Positions 23,734 through 61,233 of a stretch of DNA of 64,000 bases are shown here, one piece after another. The notes below the pieces were generated by a model. That model made no database searches and was not told the DNA's origin. It saw only the letters and a list, made by a program, of their open reading frames with translations. Source of the DNA: Candidatus Competibacteraceae bacterium (lineage in GTDB: Bacteria; Pseudomonadota; Gammaproteobacteria; Competibacterales; Competibacteraceae). A program made the translations under genes and the position numbers. The stretch lies in assembly GCA_016790045.1 (NCBI GenBank), contig JAEUPW010000016.1, positions 1-64,000 of the forward strand. Reading direction: 5' to 3'. Within the stretch, counting starts at the first letter, position 1. Each line of letters starts with the position of its first letter.

Positions 23734-24396
23734 ATGAATCTCACCGATAGCCTGCTGCCCGCCGATCTGCTGTATCTCGCCTATTTCTTGTGGGTGCTGG
23801 TGTTGGTTCAAGCCGCGCGCAAAGCGCCTTGGCGGTCGTTTCTGGCTCGCTCCACGCTTCAACACGTGTTTTTGGGCGCATCCGCCGCGCTGTTTTTGAT
23901 GTGGATTTTCGAGGCCGGCATCCGGCCGGCTTTGGGATTTCATTTTCTGGGCGTGACCGTGTACACGCTGATGTTCGGTTGGGGTTTGGGCGTGATCGGC
24001 GTCAGTCTGGTGGCGGTGGGGGTGGCTTTGACCAGCGGCGAATGGTCGGCCTTGGCCATCAACGCCCTGCTGTTGGGCGTTCTGCCGGTTTCGACCAGTT
24101 ACGGGATTTATCGCCTGGTCTACCGCTACCTCCCGCGCCACCTGTTTATCTATATTTTCCTGTGCGCCTTCTTCAACGCCATGGTCGCCGCCGGGACGGC
24201 GATTCTGACGCTGGTGACGCTGCTGGTCTTCGCCGAGAGCTACAGTTTCGGGCGGATCAGCGCCGAATATCTGCCTTTCGTGCCACTTTATTTGCTGCCA
24301 GAAGGGATGCTGAACGGAATGGTGACGACCGTCTTGATCGCCTTAAAGCCGGATTGGTTGAAAACGTACGACGACGATATTTATTTGAAGCCGTGA
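23734..24396 (+). CDS. CbiM-like energy-coupling-factor membrane protein, orphan
   Basis: This 220-residue protein has about six hydrophobic helices and resembles the CbiM/NikM substrate-binding permeases of ECF metal transporters (PF01891). The central GFHFLGVTVYTLMFGWGLGVIG and LPLYLLPEGMLNGMVTTVLI-like stretches are typical of a proteobacterial subgroup. Unlike true CbiM/NikM it lacks the N-terminal Met-His-Ile metal site, beginning MNLTDSLLP instead. No ECF ATPase or T-component gene is adjacent. Transport of cobalt, nickel or another ligand is therefore unproven. Confidence 0.75.
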   Translation: MNLTDSLLPADLLYLAYFLWVLVLVQAARKAPWRSFLARSTLQHVFLGASAALFLMWIFEAGIRPALGFHFLGVTVYTLMFGWGLGVIGVSLVAVGVALTSGEWSALAINALLLGVLPVSTSYGIYRLVYRYLPRHLFIYIFLCAFFNAMVAAGTAILTLVTLLVFAESYSFGRISAEYLPFVPLYLLPEGMLNGMVTTVLIALKPDWLKTYDDDIYLKP

Positions 24397-57460: not shown

Positions 57461-57942
57461 CTCGGCTTGAGGCGGCGGGCATTGCCCGGACCCGCCGAGG
57501 CCGCCTCCAATCCGGAAACTGGGGCTTTCGACCCAGTCTTGACCTGCCATCAGGAGCCGTTGGAGCCGCGAGCGTCGGGCGACTCATTTCGCGCCGGACC
57601 GGCCAGTTTGCTCGGTTCATTTTGAAACGGCCGCGTTCGGAAGCGAACTCGAATCAATCGACCCGACAGGCTTGCGGCCCGAAAACGAGATTGGACGATG
57701 GCGGCCGACAGGGCGCGCCCGCCTCCAAGTTTTTAGCCGCCGATCAATAAAATGGCCCCGACCAAGGCCGCCGCCTTCCTAGCCCTTCACTCGCGTTTTA
57801 TCATGCCGGGATGACGTGGCGCGATTCTTTCAATCGTTTCCATCATTGATGAATTTCCGAATTTCAACCGATTCCCCCCTTTCAACCTAACGGTCGCACC
57901 GTCTGATCGGCACCGACGAACGAGCCGCCAGGAGCAAAAGTC
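57461..57942. other. Intergenic region with an aminotransferase 3' stem-loop (482 bp)
   Basis: Shortly after the aminotransferase stop, gaggcggc (57469-57476) pairs with gccgcctc (57500-57507), enclosing a second hairpin gggc/gccc (57477-57480 and 57484-57487). There is no T-run, so it is at best a Rho-assisted 3' end. The remaining 430 bp contain no recognisable gene, although the last 120 bp before the PASTA gene are AT-richer and should hold its promoter. A GGAG ribosome-binding site lies before the ATG at 57943. Confidence 0.5.
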
Positions 57943-60900
57943 ATGAAAGCAAAACCGGCCCCTACCCTGTTAGCCCCTGCGGTCCTCGCCGCTCTTGGAG
58001 GGTTGCTGACTCTGTTGGGCGCGGCCGCTTGGTCCGCTCCGCTCGCTTATTTGGAATCCCCGTCGCCGCAAGCGTATTTCCGCAGCGGGATCGGCTTGAT
58101 CCGGGGGTGGTCGTGCGAGCCGGGACCCGTCGAAATCAGCGTCGACGGCGGACCGCTCCAGGCGACGGGCTCCGGCACCGAGCGGCCGGACACCGCAGCC
58201 GTGTGCGGGCGCACCAACACCGGCTTCGGGTTGATCTACAACTGGAACCGCCTCAGCCAAGGCGTTCACAATTTGCGGGCCTTGGTGGGCGGCGTGGAGT
58301 TCGCCAACGTCAACTTCACGGTCGCCACTCTGGGCGGCGAATTCGTGACCGGCCTGACCGGAAGCTACACGGTGCCGGATTTCCCCGCGCCGGGCGCATC
58401 GGCCAAAATCGCTTGGTCCCAGCCGCATCAAAATTTCATGTTTACCCGTCAAACCGAAGCGCCCCCGGTCCCCAATCCGCCCAGTTCGACGCAAGCGCGG
58501 CTGGAATCGCCCGAGCAAGGCTCGTCCGAAAGCGGCGTCGGTTTGATCCGGGGCTGGGTGTGCTCGGCCGGCCGGGTCGAGGTCAGCATCGACGGCGGGC
58601 CGCTGCTGGCCACCGCCCACGGCACCGACCGGCCCGACACCGCGCAAGCCTGCGGGCGGACCAACACCGGCTTCGGGTTGACGCACAACTGGAACAGCAC
58701 GGGCGACGGCGTTCACAACCTGCGGGCCTTCGCCGACGGCGTGGAGTTCGCCAACGTCAATTTCACCGTCACCACGCTGGGCGCTTCCTTCATCACCGGC
58801 GTGCTGGAGAAAATTCGCTTGCTCGGTTTTCCGGGCGGCGGCGCGGCGGCCAATCTCCAAGCCGCAGCGGGCGATCAAGCGGCCACGACCGTTCAATGGT
58901 CGGAACCCGATCAGAATTTCGTGATCGCCGATTCCACCGCCACTGGGACTAAAATCGCTATCGTCTCCGCCGTCACCGACCTTTTGAACAAATTTGCCGT
59001 GCTGGGAGTCGGTTCCAACTCGTCGGACGCTGTCGGCGTTCACGCCAGCAAAAACGCCCAGGGCCAAGCCAGCGACATCAGCGGAGTAACGTGGGCGGAC
59101 ACGAGCACCCAAGCCTGGGCCGATCTGCGTCTGGGCGCGGATGGCCTGCCCGACGCTTATCAGGACTCCTCCGGCACCCAGGCGCACATCAGCCAGATCA
59201 CCTCGAACTCGGTAACGGTTCAATTTCTCAACCCCTCCGGTCAGGCTCAAGGCAACCCGGTGACCACACCGCTCAACGGCGCCTTCCTGCAAATTTTGCA
59301 GCAAGCCGTCGGACGGATCCGCCAAGCGGCGGGGCTGACGGCGACTTCAGCAGCCCAGTTCTCCTCGGCCACCGAGACGCGGGCGGAAGCGGCCGCTTCC
59401 ATTGCCGACACCATCCGCTTTTCCTTGAATTCTTTGCTGGTGAGATTGTTCGGGTCGGGCAGCGTGGCATCTGGCGAGATGCTGTGCGCCATCCGCACCG
59501 CCGCCAGCACCGCCGGGATCGCCGCACCCGTCGCCGCCACTGGCTGCCAGTCACCCATGATCGCCAATTTGCTGGCGCTGGCGAACAGCCCTGTCACTCA
59601 AGCCGCCACGACCGATGCGTCGCCGGACCTCAGGGTGGAACCCGCTTTGTTGCTGGTGCAAGATGTGTTGCTGGCACCTTGCGCCGCTCCGGGCGACAGC
59701 GCTGGCTGTCTGTTCCCGGCGTCGGCCGCGCTGCGGCAAATCGCCGCTCCCCCCGCCAAGCAAATTCCTCCCGATGACTCGCCGCCCGGCAACATCTCCG
59801 TACCTGACGTGGTCGGACTGAATTCGAGCGCCGCCGCCACCGCGATCAGCAACGCCGGTCTGACGGTCGGCAACATCCGCGATCAAGCCAGCTCCACGGT
59901 GGCAGCGGGGATCGTCATCAGCCAAGACCCCGCCGCCGGCGCATTGGTGTCACGCGGTGCCACGGTCAACCTGATCAGGTCGGCGGGGCCGGCTCTGGTC
60001 ACTGTTCCCAACGTGGTCGGCCAAAGCCAAGGCACGGCGAGCAACACTTTGCAGAACGTCGGTCTAACCGTCGGCAACGTGATCCAGCAGACCAGTTCCA
60101 CGGTTCCCGCCGGCAATGTGATCAGCCAGAATCCGGCGGCCGGCGCGTCAGTCGCGCCGAATTCGGCGGTCGCGCTGGTCGTGTCGTCGGGACCCGCCCC
60201 GGTCACCGTTCCCAACGTCGTCGGCCAAACGCAAAGCGCCGCCGCTAGCGCCTTGCAAAACGCGGGTTTGACGGTGGGTGCAGTCAGCGAACAAAGCAGC
60301 GCCACCGTTCCGCAAGGACAGATCATCAGCCAGAATCCGGCGGCCGGCGCAGCGGTCGCGCCGGGTTCGGCGGTCAATCTGGTCGTGTCGTCAGGGGCTG
60401 AATCGGTCACCGTTCCCAACGTGGTCGGCCAAAGCCAAAGCGCCGCCACTGGCCGCTTGGAAAGCACCGGATTGACGGTGGGGTCGGTCACTCAGGAGAG
60501 CAGCACCAGTGTTCCCCAGGGAACCGTCATCCGTCAAAATCCGGCAGCCGGCGCAGCGGTCGCGCCGGGATCGGCGGTCGATTTAGTCGTGTCGTCGGGA
60601 CCCGCTCCGGTCACCGTTCCCAACGTCGTCGGCCAAAGCCAAAGCGCGGCGAGCGCCACTCTGCAAACTGTCGGCTTAACCGTCGGCAACATCGCCCAGC
60701 AACCCAGTTCCACGGTTCCCGCCGGCAGCGTGATTAGCCAGAACCCGGCAGCGGGCGCGTCGGTCGCGTCGGGTTCGGCGGTCGCGCTGGCGGTGTCGTC
60801 GGGACCCGCGCCAGTCACCGTTCCCAACGTGGTCGGCCAAAGCCAAAGCGTGGCGGGCAGCACTTTGCAAAGCGCTGGATTGACTGCGGGGTCGATCACC

Positions 60901-61233
60901 ACGGAAAGCAGCACTGCGGCCCCCGCCGGTATCGTTATCCGCCAGAACCCGGCAGCGGGTGCAGCGGTCGCGCCGGGTTCAGCGGTCGCGCTTGTGGTGT
61001 CATCCGGTCCTCCGCCCGTTACGGTCCCCGATGTAGTCGGTCTGACTTTACAAAATGCTCAGAACGTCATCGCCCGAGCAGGTCTGCTTACCGGCTCCAT
61101 GACTGACCAAACCACCGGAAACTTTTCGCTCAACAATTTGATCGCCAGCCAAAATCCGGCAGCAGGCGCGTCGGTCGTTCGTGGCGCCAGCGTCAATCTC
61201 GTAATTTGGAGATATAGGCTCATCGTCAATTAA
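57943..61233 (+). CDS. Exported protein with two Cys-pair modules and seven PASTA repeats
   Basis: This 1096-residue protein has a Sec signal peptide (about 1-32, hydrophobic LLAPAVLAALGGLLTLLGA, cleavage near WSA). Two homologous modules of about 130 residues start at 37 and 187, each with GVGLIRGWVC-like and VCGRTNTGFGL-like segments; Cys58/Cys88 and Cys207/Cys237 have identical 30-residue spacing and probably form disulfides. A 290-residue Ser/Ala-rich middle region resembles no domain I know. Residues 620-1088 are seven PASTA repeats. PASTA domains bind muropeptides or act as spacers. No kinase domain or membrane anchor is present. Confidence 0.82.
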   Translation: MKAKPAPTLLAPAVLAALGGLLTLLGAAAWSAPLAYLESPSPQAYFRSGIGLIRGWSCEPGPVEISVDGGPLQATGSGTERPDTAAVCGRTNTGFGLIYNWNRLSQGVHNLRALVGGVEFANVNFTVATLGGEFVTGLTGSYTVPDFPAPGASAKIAWSQPHQNFMFTRQTEAPPVPNPPSSTQARLESPEQGSSESGVGLIRGWVCSAGRVEVSIDGGPLLATAHGTDRPDTAQACGRTNTGFGLTHNWNSTGDGVHNLRAFADGVEFANVNFTVTTLGASFITGVLEKIRLLGFPGGGAAANLQAAAGDQAATTVQWSEPDQNFVIADSTATGTKIAIVSAVTDLLNKFAVLGVGSNSSDAVGVHASKNAQGQASDISGVTWADTSTQAWADLRLGADGLPDAYQDSSGTQAHISQITSNSVTVQFLNPSGQAQGNPVTTPLNGAFLQILQQAVGRIRQAAGLTATSAAQFSSATETRAEAAASIADTIRFSLNSLLVRLFGSGSVASGEMLCAIRTAASTAGIAAPVAATGCQSPMIANLLALANSPVTQAATTDASPDLRVEPALLLVQDVLLAPCAAPGDSAGCLFPASAALRQIAAPPAKQIPPDDSPPGNISVPDVVGLNSSAAATAISNAGLTVGNIRDQASSTVAAGIVISQDPAAGALVSRGATVNLIRSAGPALVTVPNVVGQSQGTASNTLQNVGLTVGNVIQQTSSTVPAGNVISQNPAAGASVAPNSAVALVVSSGPAPVTVPNVVGQTQSAAASALQNAGLTVGAVSEQSSATVPQGQIISQNPAAGAAVAPGSAVNLVVSSGAESVTVPNVVGQSQSAATGRLESTGLTVGSVTQESSTSVPQGTVIRQNPAAGAAVAPGSAVDLVVSSGPAPVTVPNVVGQSQSAASATLQTVGLTVGNIAQQPSSTVPAGSVISQNPAAGASVASGSAVALAVSSGPAPVTVPNVVGQSQSVAGSTLQSAGLTAGSITTESSTAAPAGIVIRQNPAAGAAVAPGSAVALVVSSGPPPVTVPDVVGLTLQNAQNVIARAGLLTGSMTDQTTGNFSLNNLIASQNPAAGASVVRGASVNLVIWRYRLIVN
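59800..61209 (+). repeat. Seven tandem PASTA-coding repeats of about 205 bp
   Basis: Units begin with a VPxVVG codon string at about 59800, 60004, 60208, 60409, 60616, 60820 and 61024. Units 2 to 6 are the most alike (VPNVVGQSQ, then PAAGA and VVSSGPAPVT-type linkers), which indicates recent tandem amplification. Units 1 and 7 (VPDVVGL) are diverged end copies. The amount of sequence identity makes copy-number variation by recombination likely. Confidence 0.85.

Follow-up and report, generated by a model that had tools for sequence, protein, structure and literature searches.

An exported PASTA-repeat protein of Candidatus Competibacteraceae with a tandem pair of cysteine-bearing Ig-like modules and a lineage-specific core

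The stretch of DNA analyzed here (64,000 nucleotides of contig JAEUPW010000016.1, hereafter the window) belongs to a metagenome-assembled genome (MAG) of Candidatus Competibacteraceae, which comprises 2.76 Mb on 179 contigs and is 75.8% complete. The gene under study is an open reading frame of 1096 aa, the ATG start of which is preceded at a distance of 8 nt by AGGAG, a likely ribosome-binding site (Table 1). Judged by eye, the protein begins with a signal peptide, as had been claimed in a preliminary description of the locus; it is of the Sec type, with K2/K4, a hydrophobic core up to about A29 and a putative cleavage site between AAA and W. The same inspection revealed neither a lipobox nor an anchor at the C-terminus nor a transmembrane segment. 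Behind the signal peptide follow two homologous Ig-like modules, a middle domain referred to as the core, and an array of seven PASTA repeats.

Table 1. Features of the gene for the PASTA-repeat protein, with positions in the window
Feature	Position	Strand	Basis and remarks
AGGAG, likely ribosome-binding site	57930..57934	+	sequence reading; putative
Whole CDS, 1096 aa	57943..61233	+	open frame with ATG start; orthologues on L019 and L020 share the upstream gene
Sec-type signal peptide, residues 1-29, putative cleavage between AAA and W	57943..58029	+	sequence reading only
Ig module 1, residues 35-168, Cys58 and Cys88	58045..58446	+	HMM 1-133, 215 bits; beta-rich Ig-like model
Ig module 2, residues 185-329, Cys207 and Cys237	58495..58929	+	HMM 1-133, 211 bits; VIA
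Conserved middle domain (core), residues 332-612	58936..59778	+	alignment A6; model pLDDT 78.9; in 13/59 relatives
PASTA repeat 1	59797..59976	+	PF03793, 59.0 bits
PASTA repeat 2	59998..60189	+	PF03793, 68.8 bits
PASTA repeat 3	60202..60393	+	PF03793, 73.5 bits
PASTA repeat 4	60406..60597	+	PF03793, 71.4 bits
PASTA repeat 5	60610..60798	+	PF03793, 66.8 bits
PASTA repeat 6	60814..61005	+	PF03793, 62.6 bits
PASTA repeat 7, divergent	61018..61206	+	PF03793, 41.9 bits; 22-27% identical to the others

The closest records are MAGs of Candidatus Competibacteraceae, namely L019 (85%) and L020 (79%, both over module 2). The aminotransferase-like gene upstream of the CDS is kept in both and the large ORF downstream, which by reading we take to be RecC-like, in L019. 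This gene order is not common to the remaining family members, which sit elsewhere, and a conserved operon partner was not seen. Scans for promoters and terminators yielded nothing exceeding chance. An origin from a mobile element, plasmid or phage was rejected: module 1 had no plasmid match, module 2 had no viral relative, and the kept gene order also speaks against it. Elsewhere in the window, the G+C content falls to 0.55-0.57 between positions 24000 and 28000, where the ORFs resemble ordinary housekeeping genes (RadC-like and CoaBC-like by reading).

The two modules are 55% identical across 143 columns (BLAST E 8e-54), a duplication far beyond chance, so that their claimed homology was confirmed; module 2 has a 12-residue insertion ahead of its WSEPDQNF tail. 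The two cysteines are spaced by 30 residues in both modules (58/88 and 207/237), as described before, but this spacing is not a rule, since among 71 full copies with both cysteines, taken from partner proteins of the same genome and from other genomes, it is 30 in 57, 29 in 8 and 32-39 in 6. All 71 full copies having the first cysteine also have the second, a co-occurrence compatible with, rather than proof of, a disulfide. Such a bond is proposed here; formed in an oxidising compartment, it would clamp the helix of the R-x-D-T loop onto an early strand, at the end of the latter.

For the copies in the window, neither Pfam nor NCBIfam gave a noteworthy match, and also module 2 run in isolation was not matched by Big_7 (PF17957; cut-off 24.1 bits). 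However, two whole proteins with the module exceed this cut-off (L029, 25.5 bits; L035, 24.9 bits), and 6 of 22 isolated copies match PF17957 weakly (best E 0.0068). A bridge is provided by a Cys-less sister branch in Competibacteraceae, which is picked up by the module profile at about 1e-10 to 1e-14 and itself matches Big_7 at E about 1e-12. The hhalign alignment of module and sister branch has a probability of 99.1% (E 1.2e-18); its 134 columns extend into the tail (W....QNF versus W....QGF). In the AlphaFold model of the Ig pair and the core (pLDDT 86.4, pTM 0.83), VIA matched module 2 (model residues 152-251) mostly to Ig, E-set or filamin-like domains. The best match was a region of sulfite oxidase (Z 9.1, rmsd 2.4, 84 residues), that of its Ig-like dimerisation domain. 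Because of the two proteins above the cut-off, the Cys-less bridge and the Ig-like predicted model, the module is best described as a Cys-bearing branch of the Big_7-type bacterial Ig domains with an additional tail of about 35 residues. It shares with Big_7 the core RGW ... IDG ... G..R.D ... GF ... G.H and differs by the extra Cys pair, the conserved C-terminal tail W....QNF and the terminal tandem placement. The view of the module as an unnamed domain thus stood with respect to Pfam and NCBIfam matches of the window's copies, but not with respect to kinship, and a stand-alone novel fold was dropped given the bridge and the Ig-like model. Solved structures gave no significant match to the module by sequence, and the literature held nothing specific on a named module of this kind. 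A clean Cys-bearing branch beside Big_7 should be of use to domain databases.

In the source genome, eight module copies occur on four proteins, i.e. the window protein, a PhoPQ-related protein, an fn3 protein and a trypsin-like protease (Pfam domains were called directly for the protease, and via homologues for the PhoPQ-related and fn3 proteins); overall, the unrelated exported hosts are PhoPQ-related, trypsin-like, fn3 and ASST proteins. The module or its Cys-less sister branch is present in 26 of 59 related genomes, whereas the module was found in 4/274 sampled genomes of the class and in 1/398 of the phylum, the latter being the source genome itself. A scan of contigs, biased because it was seeded with one tail pattern, added Chromatiaceae and Binatia as carriers. 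Besides the window protein, 32 ORFs with two full modules were obtained. The pair lies directly behind the signal peptide in 10 and 2-9 residues ahead of the stop codon in 16 of them, while in six, all from Chromatiaceae, about 190 residues follow the pair, with DUF4214 there in the five scanned. The single modules of Binatia and of genome G052 are also located near the C-terminus. Similar terminal pairs exist in some Cys-less relatives, others have a BACON domain behind the pair. As a side observation, reprolysin-like metalloproteases and C-type lectin proteins encoded on L077, L078, L079 and L084 contain Cys-less Big_7 modules, mostly as tandem pairs and in some cases together with BACON. 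A carbohydrate-binding module tied to a substrate is unlikely because a protease as well as PhoPQ-related and fn3-only proteins are among the hosts.

We suppose that various exported proteins have the terminal Ig pair in common as a unit for binding or placement, by which they would be held on the cell surface or within the matrix; the pair could also be a plain protective or folding unit. Its position at either terminus of unrelated cargo would likewise suit a signal chiefly for export or sorting, for example by a type II system, in place of a binding unit, and the type II secretin GspD is present in nearly all relatives (56/59). However, relatives lacking the module have GspD just as often, so that the type II system gives no support for a link between the two; in addition, both N- and C-terminal placement is unusual for a sorting tag and no processing motif was seen. 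We consider a function chiefly in export or sorting quite improbable. In the source genome, incomplete as it is, GspD was not found, which is not read as true absence, since it is present in the larger genomes of the genus. The protein would also be carried across the outer membrane, perhaps through this system.

The core of about 280 aa is modeled as a beta-meander with helices after it, and has four conserved cysteines (515, 535, 580 and 589), which together with the invariant residues are kept in all 12 rows of the alignment. It occurs in 13 of 59 relatives, all of them Competibacteraceae, and sits behind two modules wherever the contig permits checking. Neither Pfam and NCBIfam (no match of note) nor the sequences of the PDB matched it, in agreement with the earlier statement that the middle region lacks a known domain. 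The structure prediction proposed in the preliminary description was carried out and gave an Ig-like module and, for the core folded alone, a model with pLDDT 78.9 lacking a clear fold match: Foldseek returned nothing at E ≤ 0.001 (best E 0.03) and VIA nothing over Z 5.2, with teneurin as best match. These weak matches are not taken for kinship, nor would they prove a new fold. The core may be the specific functional part of the family. A stricter version of this idea, in which the core would be an enzyme or ligand-binding receptor of an uncharacterised kind with the Ig and PASTA parts as accessories, draws on the limitation of family-wide conservation to Ig pair and core and on the invariant residues and cysteines, but is very doubtful in view of the missing Pfam, PDB-sequence or clear fold match and of the invariant polar residues, among which no catalytic set was recognised. 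This lineage-specific domain merits a structure.

Each of the seven PASTA repeats exceeds the PF03793 cut-off (41.9-73.5 bits; whole protein E 2.7e-112 with Pfam), as many as had been counted before. Repeats 2-6 show 69-83% mutual identity, and repeats 2, 3 and 5 contain neither Arg nor Lys. The Pfam profile detected no second PASTA locus in the source genome. PASTA was present in 12/274 genomes sampled from the class and in 13 of 59 relatives; in Gram-negatives, it is therefore rare, yet not unique. Its position outside kinases and penicillin-binding proteins (PBPs), noted before, was confirmed for the window protein. For three PASTA proteins from outside the family, the portions inspected lacked a kinase domain. 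Exported proteins of 1170-1355 aa with at least nine PASTA repeats followed by a beta-propeller are encoded at L087:2108-5617 and L088:1741-5499, and open frames comparable to these in length contain PASTA arrays in genomes G020, G025, G029 and G034. The propeller proteins resemble the window protein as exported, non-kinase PASTA-array proteins of the same bacterial family and differ by an N-terminal array, a YNCE/lactonase-like propeller and the absence of an Ig pair.

The nearest solved relatives of the array are PASTA domains of the PknB and PrkC type (2kui, the ectodomain of PknB, at E 4.8e-25). With PknB, StkP and PrkC kinases and with PBPs, the window protein shares the PF03793 repeats, but it has no kinase or transpeptidase Pfam domain and no membrane anchor, and its repeats are almost uncharged and part of an exported protein. 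An NCBIfam kinase model scored 409.8 bits, short of its cut-off of 450, the best stretch being its PASTA end (positions 365-562 of 563). According to a review, muropeptides are bound by PASTA domains in PknB and PrkC (PMC3601408), and no outer-membrane anchor was seen and GspD not found in the source assembly, so a periplasmic protein has to be weighed, the PASTA repeats of which bind the sacculus while Ig pair and core act on the envelope or bridge to it. However, the same review reports that muropeptide binding is not intrinsic to PASTA, as only one of the three domains of PrkC binds, via Arg500 (PMC3601408). Together with the three repeats devoid of Arg and Lys and the orthologues in which InlB-type or other repeats stand in for PASTA, this makes the periplasmic alternative unlikely; peptidoglycan binding by the array does not appear to be indicated by its sequence.

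As far as searched, the family of the window protein is limited to Competibacteraceae and has a common plan of signal peptide, Ig pair, core and a variable tail. PASTA tails are found in the window protein and on L019 and L020, where the copy number is uncertain because masked or missing sequence (L019:5825-8725) and the contig end (L020) lie inside the array, a place at which assemblies from short reads break. The tail of L022a combines an fn3-like part, PASTA and an unmatched domain. L021, L025 and L028 have InlB-type Flg_new_2 tails with or without an fn3-like part, L026 an fn3-like tail alone, and L023, L029 and L030 an fn3-like part plus the unmatched domain seen in L022a, the fn3-like assignments having been made mostly by reading. 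The tree supports the window clade by 100/100; L022a as the second PASTA-bearing lineage has a PASTA-less paralogue for its sister (100/100), and the InlB-type L028 is sister to L029 with its other domain (95/93). Because of these two groupings, tails must have been swapped, gained or lost repeatedly. Since orthologues bear InlB-type, fn3-like or other repeats in place of PASTA, the array is an interchangeable tail and not the defining trait; PASTA as the core of the family was rejected. A C-terminal domain of about 150 aa lacking a Pfam match (SSTICFTATANYG...) is common to L023, L029, L030 and L022.

Fibrillar adhesin-like proteins (PMC8286594, PMC9210967) offer a close parallel in design, as the window protein is exported and combines Ig-type and repeat arrays with an exchangeable stalk-like region, but it has no adhesive domain recognised by Pfam and, by eye, no surface anchor. 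Flg_new repeats, the kind replacing PASTA in orthologues, are classed as stalk domains (PMC9210967); PASTA is unnamed in the main text of both surveys (PMC8286594, PMC9210967). The PASTA array would form a long stalk or extension with almost no charge. For the protein, a role as an adhesin or in the matrix would be plausible, with the cell surface or the biofilm matrix as the probable site of action. The complete proposal of a Sec-exported, unanchored and rod-like scaffold or adhesin-type protein of Competibacteraceae is one to which we give roughly even chances. The protein consists mostly of known parts in a real, fairly modest new combination.

Activated and granular sludge harbors the Competibacteraceae as glycogen-accumulating bacteria. 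To our knowledge, it is poorly known what places their exported proteins in flocs; the literature held nothing specific on surface proteins of Competibacter. The terminal Ig pair, recurring on proteases, PhoPQ-related and scaffold-like proteins, is a concrete candidate for such a placement unit. A bolder version, which we regard as doubtful, takes the tandem pair as a general placement or retention tag of Competibacteraceae, some Chromatiaceae and Binatia, fixing unrelated exported proteins to the cell or within the matrix of the biofilm, with the core as a new, matrix-building fold.

Two observations concern the compared records. A third tandem paralogue at L022:1-1230 has frame breaks in the core and is apparently a pseudogene or an assembly error. 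Genes of the Competibacteraceae type are present on the contigs L022 and L027/L032, so that the titles of these records, Synechococcaceae cyanobacterium and Phycisphaerales, look wrong; L022 agrees in length and genes with G035:C232 from the GTDB family of the window, and the module matches of L027 equal those of L060 of genome G031.
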